Source: a virus
Reading direction: 5' to 3' (one strand)
Length of the DNA stretch: 38,705 bases
Virus record (IMG/VR): IMGVR_UViG_3300034760_000018
Location: 1 to 38,705 of that record
The position numbers and the translations under genes were made by a program. The notes beneath the pieces were generated by a model. It did no database searches and was not told where the DNA came from. It saw nothing but the letters and a program-made list of their open reading frames with translations. Within the stretch, counting starts at the first letter, position 1; each line of letters opens with the position of its first letter. Of the stretch, positions 3,275 to 38,705 are shown one piece after another.

Positions 3275-3748
3275 CTATGGCTTCCGACTATACAGTGGGG
3301 TTTCCAGCGCCTTATCTATGGGCCAGCCGAGCAGCCTTACCCGCCGAAGAACGGTGGGATATTTTAAGCCGGTGCCCTCCACGTGTTCCGCGAGGGATGC
3401 AGTTTTGCCCCGATAGGTTAACTGAATGCTGTTGGAGCGGTTACGTTGTTGAGTCTTATTGTCGGTCCAGCGGCAGTTGCTGGGCGAATAATCGCCATCA
3501 TTATCGATGCGGTCCAAGGTCAAACTGGGGTCGTATCCAGCGCGCAACGCCCAATCGCGAAAACCGACATAGGTTTCCCATTCCGGGCAGATGGCGATGC
3601 CGCGCCCACCGTATCTGGCAAAGTGCTTGTGTTTCGGACGCCTAACGCGCGAACGCATCGACCTCCAAACGGTGTAAAGCGGAAAGCCCTCGCTTTCTCC
3701 GTGGACTATTCCCCGCTTGCCCCGCTGTGTATAATCTCGTTCAGCCAT
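3275..3748 (-). CDS. HNH-like phage endonuclease-type protein
   Basis: A 157-residue protein of a common free-standing phage family: YTVWRSMRSRV, then YGGRGIAICPEW, then LDRIDNDGDYSPSNCRWTD followed by QQRNRS. Members are usually annotated as HNH or AP2-associated putative homing endonucleases. The C-terminal LTYRGKTASLAEHVEGTGL looks like the DNA-binding repeat often attached to them. I placed the start at ATG 3748, which has GGAG six bases upstream; the frame is open to 3844. It sits between the spanin candidates and the rest of the lysis genes, where an inserted homing gene is plausible. Confidence 0.6.
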   Translation of the reverse strand: MAERDYTQRGKRGIVHGESEGFPLYTVWRSMRSRVRRPKHKHFARYGGRGIAICPEWETYVGFRDWALRAGYDPSLTLDRIDNDGDYSPSNCRWTDNKTQQRNRSNSIQLTYRGKTASLAEHVEGTGLKYPTVLRRVRLLGWPIDKALETPLYSRKP

Positions 3749-18583: not shown

Positions 18584-18675
18584 CGTGAAAATGTCCACAT
18601 GACGAGCGCTGCCAGAAGCTGTGCGCCCAGAATGATGGCCCCCATAAGCACAATGGCCCAGCTAAGCTCCGTCAT
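18580..18675 (-). CDS. 31-residue single-span membrane microprotein
   Basis: A frame from ATG 18675 encoding MTELSWAIVLMGAIILGAQL and ten more residues, almost entirely one transmembrane helix. Its ATG overlaps the portal stop (ATGA) and its TGA overlaps the next start (ATGA), so it fills the gap between two genes exactly. Such exact double coupling is good evidence for translation. A membrane microprotein in a head-assembly cluster has no obvious role. Confidence 0.55.
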   Translation of the reverse strand: MTELSWAIVLMGAIILGAQLLAALVMWTFSR

Positions 18676-20582
18676 CGAATGGCGCCCATCATCGGATCAA
18701 AGCTCGGATCAATCGGCACCACGTTAGCCTGCTGGCGCATCTGCTCCTTGGTGAGCTCAGTTTCCTGCCGAATGCGCTCCTTGCCAATCTCGGTTTCGGC
18801 CTTCAGCCTCGGTTCGGCGAGCGGGTCTTCCTGTGGTTGCTCTTCAGGCGCCGGCAACATTTGCTGCTGCTCCATCTCAGCCGGGTCGGTGAAATACTTG
18901 TCGCCCTTCAGCCCCATCGCCTCCTGCTGGCGCTTCAGGACTTCATGGACGTTCTCAAGCGTAACCAAGGGACCGTTTGCGCCGCCCTGGAACTCGATAA
19001 TCTGCCGCTGGATGTCGAGTAGCTGCGAAAGCTGACCGACGAGCTGGTCCTTGTTGTTCGATCCCAGCCCCACCGAAACCGTCATGTCGTAACTGGTTTT
19101 CCAGTCGGATGGATCGACCTCGATCCACTTGCCGCGAAGTCGGATGATCTCACCGGGTTCGCCATGCTGAGAAACAAGGCCAAGAAGCTTCTTGAATACA
19201 TCCTTCAGGAACTCCGCGAACTGCCGAGCCACCAATTCCTGCCGCTGCTGCGAGGCCGAGGCGATGATGTTCATGCCCGTCGCCGTCTTGTTCAGCGATT
19301 GAGCGTCCATGCCCTGATTGTAGCGGGTGACGCCCGTGCGGGACTCGCGAACCGTGTCCCAATACTCGATCATCTGCGATGCGGCGCCGAATGCAATCTC
19401 GCCACCGCTGGGCAGCGAGTTAATCGCCCCGCTCTGCCTGACCCTGACCAGCCCGCCAACGCTCGGATTGAGCAGGTCGTCCATGTTCACCTGACCATCG
19501 AGCACTTCGCGCATCGGGCGATTGGCTAGATAGAGGGCGTTATTGGCTTCCCGCTGGATCGCGGTCTTGTTCATCTGAATGTCGCGGGTCACGTCATGAA
19601 CCGACATGCCGACGAGCTTGTGGGGGATCGGGATCGGTGTCCAAGCCGAATAGGGATGGCCGTCAACCTTTTCACGGGTCAAAACCTTGCTCTGCGAGCC
19701 GCCAAGCAGCGCCTTATACCAGCACAAAACCCCGTCGCCGGAATCGGTCTTGATGTAGCACTCATCGACCCAAACCGGACGGGCCAAGTCGTCATCATCG
19801 AACTCTGGTTCGTCTGCCTGTTCGTGGCGGTTTTCAGCCTCTTCGCTGTCAGGACGCCCTGAACTCAGGTCTTTCGCCTTCTTCTCGTCAATGCCCATGT
19901 CGATGAGGTCGGCAAGCGTGACCTGCTTGGAATGGCCGAGGAACGTGGCTTGGTCGAGCGATGCAAGCCGCTCTTCGTAGAGGAACTCATCAGGCGCAAC
20001 GACATGGACACGGTAGCGCTTCACCTTCTTAGGGGCGATCGTAACGCTGTAGAGCTGGGTAGCCTCGTCAATGGCAATCGGGCCGGCGAGGTCGGGATTC
20101 TGCTCCAGCAAAGCAAGCAATTCGCTTAAGCCCAGCCCGTCATAGTCCTGCGGCGGGCCTTCGTCTTCTTCCTCCATCACGGTCTTTGCGACCCCGAGCC
20201 GATACATCAGCCCGTCTTTCATCGAGTCATGAACGACCCGGAAGGCGTTGTTGTGCGTCGAAAAGACGTGGTTCACATAGTCGGTTGCCTGGCGGGAGCC
20301 TTCTTCATCTTCAGGCCCCACAGGCTCGAAGCTGACCACCTCCTCTCCAGCCACGAACGGACGGACCAGCGAGGGCATCATGCTCTCGACCGCTTCCATC
20401 GTATCACGGCTTACGACAGTGCTAAGCCCGTCGCCGCTGTCGCCGTAATCGGAAAGATTGTCGCCACGGTAGAAACGCAGTGCCTCTTGTCGATCCCGCT
20501 GGGGCTTGGCGTCCTTGAACTTGACGCAAGCATCCCGCCGCTTGACCACCATCTCGCGGAAATCACGCGGCGGGGATGCCAT
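18672..20582 (-). CDS. Portal protein (SU10-type)
   Basis: A 636-residue portal of the SU10/P22-like group. The N-terminal clip/wing region includes RQEALRFYRGDNLSDYGD and the conserved SRDTMEAVESMMPSLVRPF. The crown-proximal core has RVHVVAPDEFLYEE, and the stem region has DIQMNKTAIQREANNALY and GMDAQSLNKTATGMN. The C-terminus is a Gln/Glu-rich coiled coil. The portal forms the dodecameric ring through which terminase pumps DNA. It lies downstream of terminase and its two-gene spacer, four bases after the preceding stop. Confidence 0.85.
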   Translation of the reverse strand: MASPPRDFREMVVKRRDACVKFKDAKPQRDRQEALRFYRGDNLSDYGDSGDGLSTVVSRDTMEAVESMMPSLVRPFVAGEEVVSFEPVGPEDEEGSRQATDYVNHVFSTHNNAFRVVHDSMKDGLMYRLGVAKTVMEEEDEGPPQDYDGLGLSELLALLEQNPDLAGPIAIDEATQLYSVTIAPKKVKRYRVHVVAPDEFLYEERLASLDQATFLGHSKQVTLADLIDMGIDEKKAKDLSSGRPDSEEAENRHEQADEPEFDDDDLARPVWVDECYIKTDSGDGVLCWYKALLGGSQSKVLTREKVDGHPYSAWTPIPIPHKLVGMSVHDVTRDIQMNKTAIQREANNALYLANRPMREVLDGQVNMDDLLNPSVGGLVRVRQSGAINSLPSGGEIAFGAASQMIEYWDTVRESRTGVTRYNQGMDAQSLNKTATGMNIIASASQQRQELVARQFAEFLKDVFKKLLGLVSQHGEPGEIIRLRGKWIEVDPSDWKTSYDMTVSVGLGSNNKDQLVGQLSQLLDIQRQIIEFQGGANGPLVTLENVHEVLKRQQEAMGLKGDKYFTDPAEMEQQQMLPAPEEQPQEDPLAEPRLKAETEIGKERIRQETELTKEQMRQQANVVPIDPSFDPMMGAIR

Positions 20583-21423: not shown

Positions 21424-22959
21424 TTATACAACGCGGGTGCGCTGCCTCTTCAGGGCGGATGACCACCCATCTCCATCGGGGACCGGCTCAGCAAAGGTGA
21501 GCGCTACAGCATCCCATTCGTCGGGTGATCGAATGCCACGCCGACGCATATCTTCCTTTTTCTCCAGCCAAATCCGTTGATTGGCATCGTAACCGTATCC
21601 GGGGCTGCAAGCGTCAGCCTGTAAGCTGTCGCTGTCCGGAATGTCCGCACCGCCGACCTCGTTGAGCCAATCGCGCGACCTCACCCACATCTCAGCGCGA
21701 CGATTGCGAGCGCCAGGCTTCTTGCTTCCATCGGGCAACAGCGTTTCCGGCTCCTGCGGCTCTGACCCGAAATTCACCGCCACGACACCGGGAACACCCC
21801 ACGATTTGAGCAAGTCCACAACGCCGCCTCCAAGGCCGCCTACATCGACAAAGGTGCGCTTGGGCTTCTCGGCTTCGACAATTTGTCGAACCCAATTCGC
21901 GCCAGCGACAACATCGATCTTCGACTTGCTTTCAATAACTGGAACCTTGCGGCCTTGCCGCCGAGCGATTGAGAACCGATCGTCGCCAAAGCGAGCTGGA
22001 TCGACACCCAGAACGAGAGGGCCAATGCCTTCGATGTTCGCCTTGCGCGCCCTCATGACTGTGTCTGGCTTTATCAGGCTGTCGTGGCCGCTCATCTGGA
22101 ATGCCTCGGCGGCACTCGCCGGATATTCCTGCTTGAACAGCAGGGGATCCTTTAGTTCGACAATCTTGTTACGCCGCCAAGCCATCTGAGGAGGCGTCAG
22201 ATTGAAGGCTTCTAGGTATTCCTGCTCTTCGTCGGTTGCGCGAAAGTCTTCCGGAACGGCGCGCACATATCCTTCATCCCAGAACCACGGAATGAAGATT
22301 GCCTGGTAGTCACCTAGTTCAGACTCGGCCTGTTGCCAGCGTTCGTGAAACTCGCCACCAAGCCCATTGGCGGTGCTTTCCAGCACAATTTCAGTTCCCG
22401 GCAAGTCCGGTATCGCTTGGACCACACCAGCAAAGTGTGATGCAGCATTAGGCCAGAATGCGACTTCAGAGCCGTGAAACAACTGAACCGTCTTGGAGCG
22501 CCCAACAGCCTTGGTTCCTGCTGTGCCAACCTCATAGCCACTATCCAAGCGCGGGAAATTCAGTTCCTTGGCGTTCGATGCGCCCGTTTGTGGCTTCAGC
22601 AGCTCGGGACAGTTCGTGTGGTATCGATCCACCATCCCGAACAGGTTGTCGGTGGCCGACTGCTCGTGGGTAAGAATGAACGTCCGCACGCCGCGATTGT
22701 GAGTGGTGAGCCAGTAATAGCGCCCGCCGATGTAAGTCGAGATGCCCTGTTGCCGGCCCTTCAACACCAGTGCGCGAACCTTGCCCGTGTCGCGCCTCTG
22801 CATCTCCAAACGAGAATGCAAATGCTTTTGGGCGTGGTTCAGAATGAATGGCTGAACAGGTCCAGCGGCTTTAGGCCGTATCTTTAGACAACGCTCAGCG
22901 TAGAACTCAAAATCATCTTTTGCCCGCTGCCGAAGCGCGATCTCCTCATCTGAGAACAT
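21424..22959 (-). CDS. Terminase large subunit
   Basis: A 511-residue packaging motor. The ATPase domain has an adapted Walker A KGRQQGIST (67-75), Walker B with catalytic Glu in IVLESTANG (191-199) and the coupling region after it. The RNase H-like nuclease domain has GVDPARFGDDR (Asp320), TFVDVGGLGGG (Asp372) and the final DEWDAVAL (Asp483). I start at ATG 22959 because GGAAG lies nine bases upstream; the ATG three codons earlier touches that ribosome site. It overlaps the small-subunit candidate by 14 bases. Type of packaging cannot be told from sequence alone. Confidence 0.92.
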   Translation of the reverse strand: MFSDEEIALRQRAKDDFEFYAERCLKIRPKAAGPVQPFILNHAQKHLHSRLEMQRRDTGKVRALVLKGRQQGISTYIGGRYYWLTTHNRGVRTFILTHEQSATDNLFGMVDRYHTNCPELLKPQTGASNAKELNFPRLDSGYEVGTAGTKAVGRSKTVQLFHGSEVAFWPNAASHFAGVVQAIPDLPGTEIVLESTANGLGGEFHERWQQAESELGDYQAIFIPWFWDEGYVRAVPEDFRATDEEQEYLEAFNLTPPQMAWRRNKIVELKDPLLFKQEYPASAAEAFQMSGHDSLIKPDTVMRARKANIEGIGPLVLGVDPARFGDDRFSIARRQGRKVPVIESKSKIDVVAGANWVRQIVEAEKPKRTFVDVGGLGGGVVDLLKSWGVPGVVAVNFGSEPQEPETLLPDGSKKPGARNRRAEMWVRSRDWLNEVGGADIPDSDSLQADACSPGYGYDANQRIWLEKKEDMRRRGIRSPDEWDAVALTFAEPVPDGDGWSSALKRQRTRVV

Positions 22960-23176
22960 CGAGCGCATCTTCCTGGCGAAGCGTCATGTTTCCATCAATG
23001 GTCACAGCGCTCAGGTCAGGCAGCGTCTTCCTCACTAGGACTTCAATAGCCTTAATCTGCGTGGCGCTCAGGTCGAGATCGCCAAGTGCATGTTTTTCAA
23101 GGCGATTTAGCAACTGACTTGTCTGGATTTTTGCCCGCACATCATCCTGATGCGTCGTTCTCATTCTAGCAGCCAT
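22946..23176 (-). CDS. Terminase small subunit candidate
   Basis: A 76-residue protein overlapping the start of the large terminase gene. The core VRAKIQTSQLLNRLEKHALG and then LSATQIKAIEVLVRKTLPDL matches a short helical protein that precedes terminase large subunits in many podoviruses and is taken to be the DNA-recognition subunit. It is shorter than classical TerS proteins and shows no separate helix-turn-helix. Position and motif are good; the biochemical role is inferred. Confidence 0.65.
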   Translation of the reverse strand: MAARMRTTHQDDVRAKIQTSQLLNRLEKHALGDLDLSATQIKAIEVLVRKTLPDLSAVTIDGNMTLRQEDALDVLR

Positions 23177-24155: not shown

Positions 24156-24360
24156 TGCGATCAGCCTGTGACGGCATATGCTTCAACATCGCCTCGATGC
24201 GGAACTCTTCTTCTGCCTGGCGTTCGGATTCGTTCATCTCGATACATTCATCGATCCATGCCTGGTTGCGTGCGGCACGGGTTGCCAGAACATCGTCGGG
24301 CACGGCTTTGGTTATGTGGATCGTTAGCTTCGGTTGTTTGCGGCGACCTAAGCCTGGCAT
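24145..24360 (-). CDS. 71-residue hypothetical protein
   Basis: From ATG 24360 (MPGLGRRKQPKLTIHITKAV), one base past the stop of the membrane microprotein upstream. A short strand (LTIHITKAV) is followed by a long charged helix (NQAWIDECIEMNESERQAEE). The longer frame start at 24384 would overlap the microprotein. It is not recognised. Confidence 0.5.
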   Translation of the reverse strand: MPGLGRRKQPKLTIHITKAVPDDVLATRAARNQAWIDECIEMNESERQAEEEFRIEAMLKHMPSQADRNDG

Positions 24361-24361
24361 G

Positions 24362-24481
24362 TCAGGCAAGCGCCCACAGAGCACCGAGAACGAAGCCGAC
24401 TAAAAACAATGCGCCAGCCACAAGAATGAGACGCACTGCATCTCGCGCCACCACGGCCGCAGCGAAGCCGGGCCCAATCAC
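24362..24481 (-). CDS. 39-residue membrane microprotein
   Basis: A GTG-started frame (GTGA overlap with the preceding microprotein) encoding a basic N-terminus and a hydrophobic helix, LILVAGALFLVGFVLGALWA at 18-37. It ends one base before the next gene's start. Together with the 31-residue frame upstream it forms a pair of coupled membrane microproteins at the head of the late operon. Confidence 0.5.
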   Translation of the reverse strand: MIGPGFAAAVVARDAVRLILVAGALFLVGFVLGALWALA

Positions 24482-24573
24482 ACCAGCGCCCCGAACACAA
24501 AGCCCGTCGCGAAGATCAGCCCAAGCACAGCCCATGCGTGCCAGCCTGTGACAGCGATGGGGTTACGCTCCAT
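24478..24573 (-). CDS. 31-residue membrane microprotein
   Basis: ATG 24573, with AGGAG upstream, encodes MERNPIAVTGWHAWAVLGLI and ends with FATGFVFGALV: one transmembrane helix. Its GTG codon and stop form a GTGA overlap with the next microprotein. Holin-like partners or small virion or membrane modulators are possible; nothing decides between them. Confidence 0.5.
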   Translation of the reverse strand: MERNPIAVTGWHAWAVLGLIFATGFVFGALV

Positions 24574-24706
24574 TGGCTGACTCCTGTGAGTGGCGCGGGT
24601 GCCAAGCTGTCGCCTTGGCGTTTAACAACCAACATGATGGCAGGCTGCCCGCTGTGTAGGTGCCGCGCGCAGCAACGATGTCAGGCCACGGCTCATTAGG
24701 TGACAT
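24563..24706 (-). CDS. Possible 47-residue first gene of the late operon
   Basis: A frame from ATG 24706 to TAA 24563, starting MSPNEPWPDIVAARGTYTAG and ending over the ATG of the membrane microprotein (11-base overlap). The overlap style fits the operon, but the ribosome site is poor and the sequence is not recognised. If it is not translated, the stretch 24574-24868 is simply the late promoter and leader. Confidence 0.33.
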   Translation of the reverse strand: MSPNEPWPDIVAARGTYTAGSLPSCWLLNAKATAWHPRHSQESANGA

Positions 24707-24729
24707 GGCTGGTTATCGGTGCGCGCGGC

Positions 24730-24766
24730 TCGGCACTGCGCGAGGGGTGTCGCTCAACTGTGCCGA
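24730..24766 (-). other. Hairpin in the late leader
   Basis: TCGGCAC (24730-24736) and GTGCCGA (24760-24766) can pair with a 23-base loop in the transcript from the late promoter. There is no U-tract, so it is not an intrinsic terminator; it could be a regulatory leader structure or chance. Confidence 0.25.
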
Positions 24767-24818
24767 ATCTGAAGAGGTGTGCCGTCTGCTCTAGGCGCGC
24801 AGAACGACATTGACGATT

Positions 24819-24847
24819 TACATAACAAAGCGATTGAACCGCGTCAA
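24819..24847 (-). promoter_or_regulatory. Late-operon promoter candidate
   Basis: On the minus strand TTGACG (24847-24842) and TATGTA (24824-24819) are separated by 17 bases, with a TG element just before the -10. This is the best sigma-70-like promoter I can see in the window. It lies in the 295-base gap between the last early-left gene and the first late genes and points into the late operon. Confidence 0.6.
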
Positions 24848-24858
24848 CTGATAGATTT

Positions 24859-24867
24859 TGTGAATAA
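24859..24867 (-). promoter_or_regulatory. DnaA box upstream of the late promoter
   Basis: TTATTCACA on the minus strand fits the DnaA-box consensus TTATNCACA exactly. It lies 11 bases upstream of the -35 element, centred near -51, a normal activator position. The phage encodes a stand-alone DnaA domain IV protein at 27613-27948 that would be expected to bind such a box. The site could also serve host DnaA or be chance. Confidence 0.45.
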
Positions 24868-24868
24868 G

Positions 24869-25204
24869 TCACCGCGTCCGACCATACGCATCGCAGACCT
24901 TATGCGAGGTCACAATCGGGATCATCGTTCGGTTGGACATGGTGTAAGAGGTGACGACTTGCGTGTGAGCGCTGGTGCAAGCCCATTCGTTCTTTTTAAG
25001 CGTCACCAAATTAGGGCTAGCCCCCTGCGCGATCAGCACAAAAGGCAATGCCCCAATGAAAACAGCCAGCGGGATGCCGACAAGCAAGGCAAGCGCAGCG
25101 CCTAACCGACTTTCCTCGTCTGCTACGCTGCGAGCCAGCCATAGTGTTCCGCCGAAGCAACCGAGCGCGAACATCGCCGCGAGCACGTGCAGGAAAATGC
25201 TCAC
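24869..25204 (-). CDS. Two-span membrane protein
   Basis: A 111-residue protein starting at GTG 25204 in a GTGA overlap. Hydrophobic helices lie at about 3-25 (FLHVLAAMFALGCFGGTLWL) and 34-60 (ALALLVGIPLAVFIGALPFV). The C-terminal part (WACTSAHTQVVTSYTMSNRT and then IPIVTSHKVCDAYGR) resembles tails of small phage membrane proteins of unknown function. It is the last gene of the early-left operon; its stop is just before the DnaA box. Confidence 0.55.
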   Translation of the reverse strand: MSIFLHVLAAMFALGCFGGTLWLARSVADEESRLGAALALLVGIPLAVFIGALPFVLIAQGASPNLVTLKKNEWACTSAHTQVVTSYTMSNRTMIPIVTSHKVCDAYGRTR

Positions 25205-25806
25205 GCTGCCACCATCAACAGGTGCGCGACCTGCCCATGAAGTCTGTGCGCTGCCAGACTGAAGCGCAGTTTGTCTTCCTTGGTGAGCCGGGGTGTGGCG
25301 TTCCAGGCGCCGACGACAACGAACTGGAACAGCTCCAGCAAATGCTTCGGTATCGCCAGCTCGGCATAGACGACATCGGCGCGCGCTTCGGCTTGAGCGC
25401 TCGATCGGGCGGAGTGATCCCAGCCTGCCCCGCCCCTGCCGCCTACACCGCCGTAGTTAGCCGTTGTGCCCTGCCCGCTGTCGAATGCCAGCTCGAAGCG
25501 TTCGCCATACCATTCGCAGGCTAATGCTTGCTCAGGCGTGATGACGCCGGCATTCCGTAGCTTCTCAACCCGTGTGAGCTTACGGACGGTCTGGCGGGCC
25601 TTGTCGCTCTTGTGTTCGCGTGTGTCGCGATCAGGCTCGGCGGCTCGAAGCCTCACCATCTCGCGCTGGTCCGCGTCCGTGTGATTGGATATGTCAGCCA
25701 GCGCCAGGCCATGCCTAGCTTGCTCAGGCGTGGTTACGGTGAGCGCCACCTTCGCCACCGGATCAATGCGAGGCTTTCTTGCTCGGCGGGATTTGCCCTT
25801 GGTCAT
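25201..25806 (-). CDS. DUF6456-like protein, candidate late regulator
   Basis: A 201-residue protein from ATG 25806 (ATGA overlap with the methyltransferase). The N-terminus is very basic (KGKSRRARKPR). Residues 75-195 match the outline of alphaproteobacterial DUF6456: a helix KLRNAGVITPEQALACEWYG with ERFELAF, then TTANYGGVGGRGG, then AELAIPKHLLELFQFVVVGA and a final helix. The family is thought to act with DNA, but its function is not settled. Its place just ahead of the late promoter is where phages often keep their late activator. The family call is moderate; the regulatory role is inference. Confidence 0.5.
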   Translation of the reverse strand: MTKGKSRRARKPRIDPVAKVALTVTTPEQARHGLALADISNHTDADQREMVRLRAAEPDRDTREHKSDKARQTVRKLTRVEKLRNAGVITPEQALACEWYGERFELAFDSGQGTTANYGGVGGRGGAGWDHSARSSAQAEARADVVYAELAIPKHLLELFQFVVVGAWNATPRLTKEDKLRFSLAAHRLHGQVAHLLMVAA

Positions 25807-26375
25807 CGGGCGATGCCTTCGGCCCGCGCTGCGACCTCTTCGGGGCTCAGCCGCTTCGCGTCTTCGTGCCAGCATCGCATCGCTATCGCGGGTGGCCGGA
25901 AAACCACTACGGCAGACGGGAATGGCGCATCTTTTATCCCGTTGAACTTCAAGCGACCCCGCAAAAACCGAACCTCACCTTTTGCCGCGTAGTCGTGCCA
26001 CCAGGCGGTATCGGTTCGGGCGGGAACCAAACAAACGATTGTCGCGCCGATGAGGCTACTTTCGTAAGCCTTGCGCATCCACTTACCGATTTCTCGACCA
26101 TATGGAGGATTCATCCAGCAGACACCCGACCAGTCTTTAGAGAGACCGTCCTGTTCTGGAGTAAAATAGGTTGGGCATTTCGCATTGCTTGCGATCGCGC
26201 AAACATCAGTGCCGAAGCCAAACTCTCTATCGAGAGCGTCGAACGTATCTTGCGGCGTGGGCCACAAATCCGTGGCGCTGGAGTAATGCACCGCGCAAGG
26301 GATGCCAGCTAAGCCCGAGACTTTAGGCTCGGCCCCGCAAGGGGTGGCAGCCCGGTCCGAAGGATGCGCCCCCAT
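25803..26375 (-). CDS. Phage DNA N-6-adenine methyltransferase
   Basis: A 190-residue protein of the phage Dam-type family (DNA_N6_adenine MTase). The family opening DLWPTPQDTFDALDREFGF (37-55), the catalytic NPPY (89-92, WMNPPYGREIGKWM) and the late strand with LVPARTDTAWWHDY and RGRLKFNG are all present. I start at ATG 26375, which overlaps the preceding TGA as TGATG; the frame is open to 26405. It would methylate phage DNA, protecting against restriction or tuning DnaA/replication timing. The site specificity cannot be read. Confidence 0.85.
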   Translation of the reverse strand: MGAHPSDRAATPCGAEPKVSGLAGIPCAVHYSSATDLWPTPQDTFDALDREFGFGTDVCAIASNAKCPTYFTPEQDGLSKDWSGVCWMNPPYGREIGKWMRKAYESSLIGATIVCLVPARTDTAWWHDYAAKGEVRFLRGRLKFNGIKDAPFPSAVVVFRPPAIAMRCWHEDAKRLSPEEVAARAEGIAR

Positions 26376-26515
26376 CACGCCTCCATCTCCGAACTCCACC
26401 CACACATCGCACCATCAATAGCAACAGCAGCAGCCATGAAGATAAAGGCAGCGCTGAACAGGAGCGCAGAGAGAATGCCCGAGGCGGCTAGGACGGTTGC
26501 GGTGCGGGGTTTCAT
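26375..26515 (-). CDS. 46-residue membrane protein
   Basis: A short frame from ATG 26515, coupled to the preceding stop by ATGA and to the methyltransferase start by TGATG. One transmembrane helix (about 7-32, LAASGILSALLFSAAFIFMA) is followed by a short acidic tail. Exact coupling on both sides supports translation. The role is unknown. Confidence 0.5.
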   Translation of the reverse strand: MKPRTATVLAASGILSALLFSAAFIFMAAAVAIDGAMCGWSSEMEA

Positions 26516-26844
26516 GCGGTCGGCCCGATCGTCACCTGGTCATTGTGGATGAACCAGTGGCAGTCGCTTCGCCCGATGCTGCGCAGGTGCGCGTTACCCC
26601 GTTCATCCGCAGCGTCCAACATCTCGCGGCTCACCGCTTTTTTCGCCATGAGCGCTAGCAGATCGGCCGCTTTCGGCATCCAGCGTTCAGTGCGCGCCCA
26701 TTCGCGGGCGGCGATTTGCAGCTTCACCGGATCGGCGTCGGCCAAGTCTTTAGCGAGCAATCCGACCTGTGCAGCATGGGCCTCCTGGTCAGCAGCGGTA
26801 AGCGGCCTGAAGCGAAAGCCGAGTTCCGTGATGATCTTCAGCAC
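26512..26844 (-). CDS. Replication-cluster helical protein
   Basis: A 110-residue protein if started at GTG 26844 (GAGGAGG about 12 bases upstream); the frame is open to 26976, but that part shadows the replication protein. The sequence LKIITELGFRFRPLTAADQE, then IAAREWARTERWMPKAADLL matches a phage family found beside replication genes, with the MPKA.DL turn as hallmark. It may be a helicase-loader-like or accessory factor; this is not shown. The start is uncertain. Confidence 0.5.
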   Translation of the reverse strand: MLKIITELGFRFRPLTAADQEAHAAQVGLLAKDLADADPVKLQIAAREWARTERWMPKAADLLALMAKKAVSREMLDAADERGNAHLRSIGRSDCHWFIHNDQVTIGPTA

Positions 26845-27616
26845 CCGGTTGTCGGGCCTCCTCGTCGAGGATTGTCCGGTATATGTCGCTAAGGGGGTTG
26901 GTCCGAGGTCGCTGTATGCTTCCGAGCCGTGAGTATTTGTCGCGGTGTGCTGACCTGATCCAATTTCCGAATGCATCGTCCCAATCCTTCTTTAAGCCCT
27001 TGCCCTTTTCCGGTTTTGCGTTGGCGGCCCACGCTCGGAATGATTCCAGTTCCGCCTCAAAGGCGCCGGGCGGCCAGTTCTCGACCATCGTTTGAGTGTT
27101 GGGAGACAGCGCCCTTGTCGGCACCCAATCCAAAGGAAGGGCCAGCCAAGTAATTTTGCTCGCGCGTGTTTTAGGTGAAGAAGCTTTAGCTTCTGAACTT
27201 ACTTCCTTAACTTCTTCCCTTCCTTGTTCTGTGTCTTGCCCCTGTCTTGCGTCTGTCTCGTCCGGCGTCTTGCCCACTGTCTCACGCGAGTTTGCTTCGA
27301 GCTGATATTGTGCGTAATTACATATAGTTACGACCGACAGCCCTGTCTCAATCTGGACCTTAACCATTGTCTCGGCTTTGAGGCGTTTTAGAAGACGCTC
27401 AATCCACGCCTTGTCGCGATCCATCGCCCTTGCGAAGTCCCGAACGGAGATTGCGAGCTGGCCCCTGCCGAGATGGATTGCCCGTTCCTTGTATCGAACA
27501 CGAATGGGTTTCCACGCGGCTCTCGCGACCAGCCAAGCGAACGCCATAGCCTCAGCGTCGTTGCGGAACGCAGGGTGGCCGATCAGCGAGCGGTGGATAC
27601 GGACATAGCCGCTCAT
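26789..27616 (-). CDS. Replication initiation protein
   Basis: A 275-residue protein. The N-terminal 110 residues form a phage replication-type winged helix: GYVRIHRSLIGHPAFRN, WKPIRVRYKERAIHLGRGQL, AISVRDFARAMDRDKAWIER and the wing VKVQIETGLSVVTICNYAQY. A Glu/Asp/Gln-rich linker (115-155) leads to a C-terminal domain with WLALPLDWVP, a helix AFEAELESFRAWA and KGKGLKKDWDDAFGNWIRSA, the DnaT/replication-O-like end that contacts single-stranded DNA or the host helicase. It overlaps the DnaA-like gene by ATGA. The origin may lie within this gene or nearby; no iteron cluster was found by eye. Confidence 0.75.
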   Translation of the reverse strand: MSGYVRIHRSLIGHPAFRNDAEAMAFAWLVARAAWKPIRVRYKERAIHLGRGQLAISVRDFARAMDRDKAWIERLLKRLKAETMVKVQIETGLSVVTICNYAQYQLEANSRETVGKTPDETDARQGQDTEQGREEVKEVSSEAKASSPKTRASKITWLALPLDWVPTRALSPNTQTMVENWPPGAFEAELESFRAWAANAKPEKGKGLKKDWDDAFGNWIRSAHRDKYSRLGSIQRPRTNPLSDIYRTILDEEARQPGAEDHHGTRLSLQAAYRC

Positions 27617-27948
27617 GCCATCAGCTTCCGGCGCAGATACCGAACCTTGCCGGCCAATTCCTTGTCAGCCTTCAAGCGCGCCTTGGCCTGGGCTATGCCG
27701 TGCATTATCGTTGTGTGATCGCGGAATCCAAAGTGACGACCGATGTTCGGCAGCGATAGCGGTGTCATCTCTCGCGCCAGCAGCATGGCGTATTGCCGCG
27801 GCCATGCGACATCGCGCCCCCGCCGTTGCGAAACCATTTCGATCAGCGGAATATGGAAGGACGCAGCAACAGCGCGCTGGATCGATGCGACCGAAGGATG
27901 ATGCCGCGTTATCGGCTCATCGGTGTAGGGTTGGAGCGAGGGGAGCAT
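27613..27948 (-). CDS. Stand-alone DnaA domain IV (DnaA-box-binding) protein
   Basis: A 111-residue protein, essentially the C-terminal DNA-binding domain of DnaA with no AAA+ part. The basic loop and helix include QRRGRDVAWPRQYAMLLARE (41-60), then SLPNIGRHFG and the DnaA signature FRDHTTIMHGIAQAK (75-89). It would bind TTATNCACA boxes without ATP control. It starts in a TAATG overlap and precedes the replication protein, so it may direct initiation, compete with host DnaA, or act at the DnaA box beside the late promoter. Confidence 0.85.
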   Translation of the reverse strand: MLPSLQPYTDEPITRHHPSVASIQRAVAASFHIPLIEMVSQRRGRDVAWPRQYAMLLAREMTPLSLPNIGRHFGFRDHTTIMHGIAQAKARLKADKELAGKVRYLRRKLMA

Positions 27949-30410: not shown

Positions 30411-30944
30411 CTAGGCGGCCACCCGCTGGGCTTGCCACTGAGCAAACTTGATGCGGCGTTTGATCCTGGCTGTCTCAGCGCCCGAACGGCGCTCAACGCC
30501 CATGTCGAAAAGGATTTGCCGAATACGCTCCCGCGTCAGCCCAAACGTCTTGCCAACAACTTCCAGCGTTTCCCCGGTCGCGTAGAGTTTGACGATGGCT
30601 TCGTCCCGCTCGTCCCACTTGGGAAGCTCGACGGTGCCAGCCTTAATGCCGTCGATGAGTTCCAGCAGTTCGGGAACGGCCTCAAACCATTCTGTGTCCC
30701 CCGGCAGAGGGCCAATGCGATCTTCGCGGACAGGTGCAGCAGTGTGGCAATAAGCGAAGCGTCGATGCAGCCCCCGCTCCGTGCCGAGGCTACCAGATGC
30801 TTCCGCCAGAACCTCAAACTTGGCGCCGTAGTCAAAACCAAGTTGCTTCACCCGACACGCCGGGCCGGTGGAGCAGCCGATTTTGATCGGTCCCGTTCCA
30901 TCAGTGCGACGAGCGAAATAGACGAGGCGCGGCCAGTGCTTCAT
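30411..30944 (-). CDS. GIY-YIG-like domain fused to sigma-70 region-4-like HTH
   Basis: A 177-residue two-domain protein. Residues 1-100 follow the MUG113/T5orf172 pattern: Tyr9 in RLVYFARR, KIG (21-23), Arg31, Glu56 with LHRRF after it, and EWF at 85-87. Residues 110-155 form a helix-turn-helix of region-4 style: DERDEAIVKLYATGETLEVV followed by GKTFGLTRERIRQIL. It overlaps the Cro-like gene by ATGA, so it is the second gene transcribed from the early-left promoter. A DNA-targeted nuclease-like fold or an early regulator are both possible. The domain calls are good; the function is open. Confidence 0.65.
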   Translation of the reverse strand: MKHWPRLVYFARRTDGTGPIKIGCSTGPACRVKQLGFDYGAKFEVLAEASGSLGTERGLHRRFAYCHTAAPVREDRIGPLPGDTEWFEAVPELLELIDGIKAGTVELPKWDERDEAIVKLYATGETLEVVGKTFGLTRERIRQILFDMGVERRSGAETARIKRRIKFAQWQAQRVAA

Positions 30945-31138
30945 GCCGCCGCGCGATCATGGTTGGGATAGGCGGACATGAACCGCTTGATCCGTTCGAC
31001 TGTGTTGAGGCTCGGGCTGCGCCCAGCGCGCAAATCGAGGACGAAGTTTTTGTCGTTCAGCGCCAACTCGCCGAACCGTCTTTCGGTTAGGTCGTGAGCC
31101 GCGATGAAGGCCGCGATTTCGTCGGGAAATGAAGTCAT
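30941..31138 (-). CDS. Cro-like small repressor
   Basis: A 65-residue single-domain protein: FIAAHDLTERRFGELALNDK then FVLDLRAGRSPSLNTVERIK, a compact helix-turn-helix with the recognition helix around residues 27-38 and NTVERIKRFM closing it. It is the first gene of the leftward operon, divergent from the S24-type repressor, with three operators between them, so a Cro role is likely. The ATG is only 12 bases from operator O1. Confidence 0.7.
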   Translation of the reverse strand: MTSFPDEIAAFIAAHDLTERRFGELALNDKNFVLDLRAGRSPSLNTVERIKRFMSAYPNHDRAAA

Positions 31139-31149
31139 AGTGCCTGTTT

Positions 31150-31165
31150 GGGGGATATTTCCCCC
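31150..31165. promoter_or_regulatory. Operator O1
   Basis: GGGGGATATTTCCCCC, flanked by TTT and AAA, near-perfect dyad. It lies just before the Cro-like start. On the minus strand TTGCAT stands two bases before it, an arrangement mirrored at O5, so repressor bound here should block the leftward promoter. The -10 is not evident. Confidence 0.75.
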
Positions 31166-31182
31166 AAATGCAATAGGCGATT

Positions 31183-31198
31183 GTGGGATATTTCGCGA
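31183..31198. promoter_or_regulatory. Operator O2
   Basis: GTGGGATATTTCGCGA, an imperfect copy of the O1 motif with the core GATATTTC intact. It is 33 bases from O1 (start to start), about three helical turns, suitable for cooperative binding. Confidence 0.6.
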
Positions 31199-31219
31199 GT
31201 CCCGCTACAGACGCATACC

Positions 31220-31235
31220 GTGCGATATTTCCCCC
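31220..31235. promoter_or_regulatory. Operator O3, abutting the repressor start
   Basis: GTGCGATATTTCCCCC, directly followed by the repressor GTG at 31236. There is no ribosome site in between, so the repressor mRNA is probably leaderless and O3 would cover its promoter, giving autoregulation as in the lambda OR3 logic. Confidence 0.65.
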
Positions 31236-31874
31236 GTGACGGACATCGGGGCAATTCGGGAACTGATCGAGCGGGAGATGGCGACCAAGGGGTTCAGCCG
31301 CCGCAGCCTCTCCAAAGCTGCCGATTTGAGCGAAAGTGCTGTCCGCGATTTACTCACCCGCACCGACAATCCTGGCATCAGCACCTTGCGGAAAGTTGCG
31401 GAGGCGCTTGAGATGCCAGTTGATGCGCTCACCGGCGCAGGCTTGCGCGTTCCGGTCTTAGGCAAGGTGGGCGCTGGCGGCGAAGTGCTGTTCAGCATTG
31501 ACCCAGACGCCGAGCTGAACCTTGCCGACGAATGCGAGACAGTCCCCCGCCCGCCCCTTGTGGCCGGTCGGCTTATGGCGTTGGAGGTCGTCGGATCGTC
31601 AATGCTTCCCAAATATGAAGCTGGCGAAGTGATCTATGTCGCAGTGCCGAACGGTGCGGGCCATGTGCCACCGGAGGCGATTGGCTCCTACTGCGCGATC
31701 CGCACCGCCGATGGCGGAACCTATCTAAAGGTGCTTTCCAGAGGCAGCAGCGACAGACTTTTCACCCTGCGTTCGCTCAATGCGCCTGACATGGAAGACG
31801 TTGAGGTAATATGGGCCTCGCGGGTTCTATTTGTCATGCCCAAGGAACGCCCGCCCGCCAGTAACGACGAATGA
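31236..31874 (+). CDS. Phage repressor, HTH plus S24/LexA-like autopeptidase
   Basis: A 212-residue repressor. The N-terminal helix-turn-helix spans about 18-65 (FSRRSLSKAADLSESAVRDL and the following helix). The C-terminal S24 peptidase has an Ala80-Gly81 cleavage site in KVGAGGEV, nucleophile Ser122 in VVGSSMLP and general base Lys165 in TYLKVL, so RecA-dependent self-cleavage and SOS induction are expected. It starts at GTG 31236 right after operator O3 with no ribosome site; the ATG at residue 15 is an alternative, but the helix before it looks part of the fold. It is coupled to the lipoprotein gene by ATGA. Confidence 0.88.
   Translation: MTDIGAIRELIEREMATKGFSRRSLSKAADLSESAVRDLLTRTDNPGISTLRKVAEALEMPVDALTGAGLRVPVLGKVGAGGEVLFSIDPDAELNLADECETVPRPPLVAGRLMALEVVGSSMLPKYEAGEVIYVAVPNGAGHVPPEAIGSYCAIRTADGGTYLKVLSRGSSDRLFTLRSLNAPDMEDVEVIWASRVLFVMPKERPPASNDE

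Positions 31875-38596: not shown

Positions 38597-38705
<109 letters not shown>

Follow-up and report, generated by a model that had tools for sequence, protein, structure and literature searches.

The window analysed here is a stretch of 38,705 nucleotides (nt) that corresponds to positions 1-38,705 of the IMG/VR virus record IMGVR_UViG_3300034760_000018, and its late promoter is the subject of this section. On the minus strand, a gene at the position of lambda Q (25201-25875) is followed by a small membrane-like gene, an exact DnaA box (TTATTCACA), the late promoter and a structured leader (Table 1). The same strand encodes a DnaA domain IV protein (27613-27948) whose gene overlaps the start of an O/DnaD-like gene. 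An earlier note, made from the letters of the window, had proposed that late transcription is switched on by this captured DnaA domain acting at the box. Our analysis identified the product of 25201-25875, a remote relative of the gene transfer agent (GTA) activator GafZ, as the more likely late switch; neither this gene nor the structured leader had figured in the note. We give a probability of about 0.6 to the reading in which this GafZ/Q-like protein is the main late switch and the DnaA-domain protein is at most a helper. The confidences attached below to other explanations overlap; a box that arose by chance, for example, is compatible with this reading.

The promoter was compared with six relatives from IMG/VR (L163, L285, L278, L284, L281 and L283). 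All six keep the -35/-10 layout just downstream of the homolog of 25201-25875. In L163 and L285 the -35 hexamer overlaps the stop codon of this homolog and TTGACG-N17-TATACA is followed by AATCG; L278 and L284 carry TTGACA-N17-GATAAA, and L281 and L283 carry TTTACA-N17-TAACTA and TTTACA-N17-TAGTTA, respectively. The initial transcribed sequence AATCGTCAATGT and the motif GCGCGCC are common to L163 and the window. Because conservation of the layout is a stronger test than matrix scores, the comparison indicates that this is a real late promoter that is conserved across relatives, as the earlier note had supposed. Whether it is also the best promoter of the phage, as the note went on to state, turns on the choice of matrix. 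With an alphaproteobacterial matrix (CTTGAC-N17-CTATAT), written after the site had been seen, it came out on top among all positions, but with an E. coli matrix it ranked 29th, and it was missing from a strict sigma-70 consensus scan (8 of 12 positions match). An E. coli-type consensus is a weak description of this promoter.

Downstream of the promoter, three hairpins were found in all six relatives. A covariance model (R1) of hairpins 2 and 3, built from the six relatives with the window excluded, had its best match in the whole window immediately after the promoter, with a score of 23.1 bits (E 0.015) against 10.8 for the second-best match, and the fold z over 24650-24818 was -2.66. This search took the place of a covariation analysis, as RNAalifold detected little covariation in alignment A6, in which L281 is misaligned and the remaining sequences are similar; in the MAFFT alignment A5, the window leader is wrongly placed at its 3' end. 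An Rfam search of 24300-25000 returned a chance mir-58 match only. Window region 24662-24818 and its counterparts in the six relatives possibly represent a novel cis-acting RNA in sphingomonad phages. Weaker R1 matches were found at L173:5575-5678, L195:10032-10145 and L174:2751-2877, which lie 2-3 kb downstream of O/DnaD-like genes, like the leader in the window. In L195, a hairpin with a long T-run is located directly before the leader element with a small protein gene just upstream, and only there is the T-run clearly terminator-like. The small protein of L195 was considered as a DUF6456 candidate and rejected, the match not being significant.

Homologs of 25201-25875 are located just upstream of the late promoter in the relatives. 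GafA homologs are annotated as DUF6456, and the C-terminal domain of GafA is similar to GafZ (PMC9638019, PMC11150451). Comparison of the 25201-25875 family with a profile of DUF6456 proteins from sphingomonad-order genomes using hhalign gave an E value of 2.3e-5 and a probability of 76% over 112 columns (4e-5 with a wider set), whereas two unrelated control families gave E values of 0.76 and 0.47. Helices follow in the same order and with similar spacing, at 33-39, 45-60, 89-107 and 112-120 of DUF6456 and at 102-108, 114-131, 154-172 and 177-187 of the structure model of 25201-25875. In a Foldseek search of BFVD, a phage DUF6456 protein was the second structural match to this model (probability 1.00, E 0.02); the same search against PDB found nothing. 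Another family of proteins encoded after O/DnaD-like genes (A4) was also tried as DUF6456 and was rejected by profile comparison.

Several observations weigh against this assignment and the role drawn from it. Pfam gave no match for 25201-25875, so that DUF6456 membership is weak by sequence, a narrower alignment gave an E value of only 0.0055, and the structure model is of low confidence (mean predicted local distance difference test score 61). No true terminator was called in the window leader, and a strict terminator scan found none in L163 and L285. Moreover, only a small number of relatives were available, all from metagenomes of a similar kind. We infer that the product of 25201-25875 is the most likely late regulator.

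The arrangement resembles two known systems. As in lambda Q/pR', a regulator gene conserved in relatives lies directly upstream of the late promoter and a leader hairpin follows the promoter; unlike in lambda, the leader terminator is not called in the window and there is no sequence match between 25201-25875 and Q. GTA late-type activators with a DnaA-like domain have been described as GafY/GafZ in Caulobacter crescentus (PMC11150451) and as GafA in Rhodobacter capsulatus (PMC9638019, PMC6363796). As in both GTA systems, a sigma-70 late-type promoter feeds head and packaging genes in the window and a DnaA-like partner (27613-27948) is encoded in the same element. At the GTA late-type promoter, GafZ binds between -10 and -35 and acts as an antiterminator (PMC11150451), and the window promoter has a possible palindrome in that position, which may be due to chance. 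In contrast to GafY/GafZ, the -35 hexamer of the window is near consensus, a true DnaA box is found at about -51 instead of a site at about -118, the two genes are not adjacent, and 25201-25875 is only a remote DUF6456 relative.

In the mechanism we favor, the site serves a temperate lambdoid phage as its late promoter, with a predicted transcription start near 24812. The GafZ/Q-like protein, made from the early operon, would engage RNA polymerase at this promoter and would enable transcription to pass the structured leader and reach the genes for lysis, packaging and structure. The box is a phage-specific upstream element in an AT-rich stretch of 20 nt. If it is functional, binding of the DnaA-domain protein or of host DnaA, at about -51, would add to promoter recruitment in a GafY-like manner, and would not act as a conserved switch.

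The 111-residue protein was described in the earlier note as a DnaA DNA-binding domain without ATPase, and the domain search agreed with this. It matched Pfam Bac_DnaA_C with 84.4 bits against a curated cut-off of 31.5 (E 5.8e-24). As in domain IV of bacterial DnaA (PF08299), the helix-turn-helix and the box-contact residues are present; unlike bacterial DnaA, the phage protein stands alone, without an AAA+ ATPase or domain I/II. DnaA itself was the best match: the protein is far closer to genuine DnaA (94 bits to TIGR00362) than to PRK06030, a model that may correspond to GafY (18 bits, cut-off 148). All checked equivalents of the E. coli box-contact residues (R399, P423, D433, H434, T435, T436 and H439) are kept in an alignment to 1j1v. 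The roles of these residues are reportedly those given by Fujikawa in 2003. They are partly restated in PMC9638019. The protein is predicted to recognise DnaA boxes (TTATNCACA). A literature search on phage-encoded DnaA domain IV found no paper.

The note had also reported a perfect box 11 bases upstream of the promoter, and the exact TTATTCACA is indeed located on the upstream side of the -35 hexamer TTGACG with a gap of 11 nt. The window contains two perfect TTATNCACA sites where 0.34 are expected, the second at 3726 in the late region. There is no enrichment in the window as a whole when boxes with at most one mismatch are counted (9 vs 11.4 expected). The probability of a perfect box per 60-nt stretch is 0.0004 at window composition, 0.0014 for the gap and 0.0036 at the local AT-rich composition, values that do not allow for the number of places inspected, the site having been picked after the whole window was read. 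The note had judged chance unlikely but not impossible; the values are low, but the choice of the site was post hoc and the spacer is AT-rich. The box lies within the 24 nt between the stop codon of the membrane-like gene and the -35 hexamer, which are 71% AT. This composition and the lack of both genome-wide enrichment and conservation in relatives speak for a chance match within an AT-rich, UP-element-like stretch; even so, the probability is low for this single promoter and the phage encodes a matching binding protein. We put this explanation at slightly less than even odds. A one-mismatch integration host factor site (WATCARNNNNTTR) at 24845-24857, between the activator site and the core promoter, was noted as well; the frequency of such sites is not above background (35 in the window vs 24.4 expected).

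Comparison with relatives bears most directly on the box. No box with at most one mismatch was found within 300 nt upstream of the promoter in L163, L285, L278, L284, L281 or L283. A DnaA-domain protein is encoded in all four records long enough to test (L163, L164, L285 and L282, the last being near-identical to L281). No relative has the box at the homologous promoter, so the box is private to this phage; in the sequences compared, promoter and DnaA-domain protein are kept without it. This private status does not prove that the box is idle. The proposal of the earlier note that the phage's DnaA domain IV protein activates late transcription from this box stands in part; the GafZ-like protein might share in the activation, in the way that GafY and GafZ work together in the Caulobacter GTA. 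The promoter is real, the contact residues make binding expected, and GafA and GafY, the latter a DnaA-like protein that activates GTA promoters through RpoD, provide a precedent. On the other hand, the box is missing in relatives that encode the protein (L163, L285 and L282), DnaA-domain phages have few perfect boxes or none, and GafY itself recognises a site other than a DnaA box, at about -118. We regard this activation as rather unlikely. Binding by host DnaA, which would tie late expression to the replication state of the host, is a further option. In Caulobacter and E. coli, DnaA also acts as a transcription factor, and a perfect consensus is what host DnaA binds, but the box is single and not conserved; we regard a role for host DnaA as distinctly improbable. 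With the box set aside as a conserved switch, the GafZ/Q-like protein remains the better candidate.

Boxes elsewhere in related phages were counted as well. Whole records of close DnaA-domain phages mostly contain zero perfect boxes. DnaA-domain loci contain 30 perfect boxes where 12.5 are expected, the loci being redundant and the boxes having no shared place except in one marine phage group. Upstream of terminases in relatives, 214 kb of sequence contained three boxes without a position in common, and the box of L002 is coding. In relatives, the 3' end of the DnaA-domain gene, a region that was chosen after a first look, is rich in near-boxes, with 7 in 6 kb vs 37 in 190 kb, which suggests that these proteins may use box-like sites. 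Perfect or near-perfect boxes at this gene end, before an O/DnaD-like gene, were seen at L189:2839, in L231 just after the gene, and at L289:1439. Marine phages with a DnaA-domain gene carry a perfect TTATCCACA within or beside a TTGAC-type early-operon promoter (L107:5855, L118:5789, L133:3634 and L138:5953), a layout that would suit repression. Because of the 3'-end near-boxes and these marine sites, DnaA-domain proteins may use boxes in phage-specific places. Three tandem TTATCCACA boxes 11-12 nt apart were also observed at L202:4720-4752, in a provirus record of 67.8 kb, perhaps in host DNA.

The same counts bear on a second function of the protein, in which a dominant-negative domain IV occupies the boxes of host oriC and blocks host initiation, the late-promoter box being incidental. 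The conserved contact residues in phages whose genomes contain almost no boxes would fit this, while the near-boxes beside the protein's own gene in relatives suggest that there are phage targets too, and we consider such a block unlikely.

A third function would be binding at the phage origin, which the box would then mark. The start of the O/DnaD-like initiator gene is overlapped by the DnaA-domain gene, and many relatives have the two side by side. However, a DnaA-domain gene was near the O/DnaD-like gene in only 17 of 48 O/DnaD-like loci, there is no box cluster, and the signature of an origin is found within the O/DnaD-like gene itself. Here, codons ~116-138, in an otherwise variable linker, form a block of synonymous codon conservation (0.82-0.97 vs 0.35-0.55 in most of the gene). 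The iterons in this block read AGACA and change in concert to AGGCA in other phages, followed by ACAGAACAA, an A-rich strand and an inverted repeat. An origin within the initiator gene, as in lambda, is therefore probable. Since these iterons differ from DnaA boxes, we consider it very unlikely that the DnaA-domain protein binds the origin.

Whether the two regulators travel together was examined in loci with DUF6456-type genes. Among such loci with at least 3.4 kb upstream, a DnaA-domain gene was present upstream in 9/12, compared to 2/30 terminase relatives, in a set partly sampled via the DnaA gene, with some near-duplicate loci and a query from other DnaA-domain phages. Together with the four of four records above, this recurrence counts in favor of the activation proposed in the earlier note. 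In other phages (L082, L084 and L297-L310), a DUF6456-like gene was likewise observed at a distance of 1-6 kb downstream of the DnaA-domain gene, as a recurring pair. The contrast is no more than suggestive; it fits the idea of phages that carry a GafY/GafZ-like pair. That free phages carry such a pair, a DnaA domain IV reading genuine boxes and a DUF6456 Q-like antiterminator, at a late promoter with a structured leader is in our view doubtful.

The gene order of the window is lambdoid: a CI-like repressor with a small divergent gene, the early operon, the O/DnaD-like initiator with its internal origin, the methyltransferase, 25201-25875 in the position of Q, the late genes and the integrase. 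Because relatives of the O/DnaD-like gene sit in Sphingosinicella, Stakelama and Sphingomonas genomes, we infer a sphingomonad-type host for this temperate, lambdoid phage. At the place of the membrane-like gene, no such gene was seen in the relatives. The end of the record beside the integrase (38671-38705, minus) resembles the 5' half of a tRNA gene and is a likely attachment site; ARAGORN called no complete tRNA there. Two copies of TTGNGGGATATTTC, 33 nt apart at 31148-31194 within or beside the CI-like gene region, are possibly operators. A small early protein (30411-30944) combines a T5orf172/MUG113-like domain with a sigma-70 region 4-like domain.

Table 1. Positions of the late promoter elements and of other features in the window.
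Feature	Positions	Strand	Remark
-35 hexamer TTGACG	24842-24847	-	
-10 hexamer TATGTA	24819-24824	-	after a 17-nt spacer
Near-palindrome GCGGT-TCA-ATCGC	24830-24842	-	position of the GafZ/Q binding element (PMC11150451)
Initial transcribed sequence	24807-24818	-	identical in L163
DnaA box, exact	24859-24867	-	centre at about -51 if start is 7 nt after -10
Leader hairpin 1	24780-24809	-	GC-rich with short T-run in L163, L285, L281; terminator-like in L195
Leader RNA hairpins 2 and 3	24662-24768	-	covariance model match
Remote DUF6456 relative (GafZ/GafA C-terminal type), 224 residues	25201-25875	-	candidate late regulator/antiterminator
Membrane-like protein, 111 residues	24869-25204	-	weak Phage_holin_3_3; stop codon 1 nt before DnaA box
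DnaA domain IV protein (Bac_DnaA_C), 111 residues	27613-27948	-	overlaps start of O/DnaD-like gene
DnaD/O-like replication initiator	26789-27616	-	
Probable lambda-type origin	27190-27290	-	AGACA/AAGAC iterons, A-rich strand, inverted repeat
Dam-type DNA adenine methyltransferase	25803-26405	-	domain match
Terminase	21424-22968		late genes
SU10-type portal	18672-20582		late genes
CI-like repressor, helix-turn-helix and S24 peptidase	31104-31874	+	fits lambdoid layout

Late gene control in phages of Alphaproteobacteria has been little described. The late promoter, the leader and the DUF6456-like regulator are now defined well enough for one reporter construct, and the DnaA-box idea reduces to a yes/no question on one phage-specific site. 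If phages do carry a GafY/GafZ-like pair, it would be a counterpart, and possibly an ancestor, of the GTA activators, with late transcription tied to a DnaA-type site in this phage. The combination of promoter, leader RNA and DUF6456-like regulator suggests that the two-part GTA activators derive from ordinary phage late regulators.
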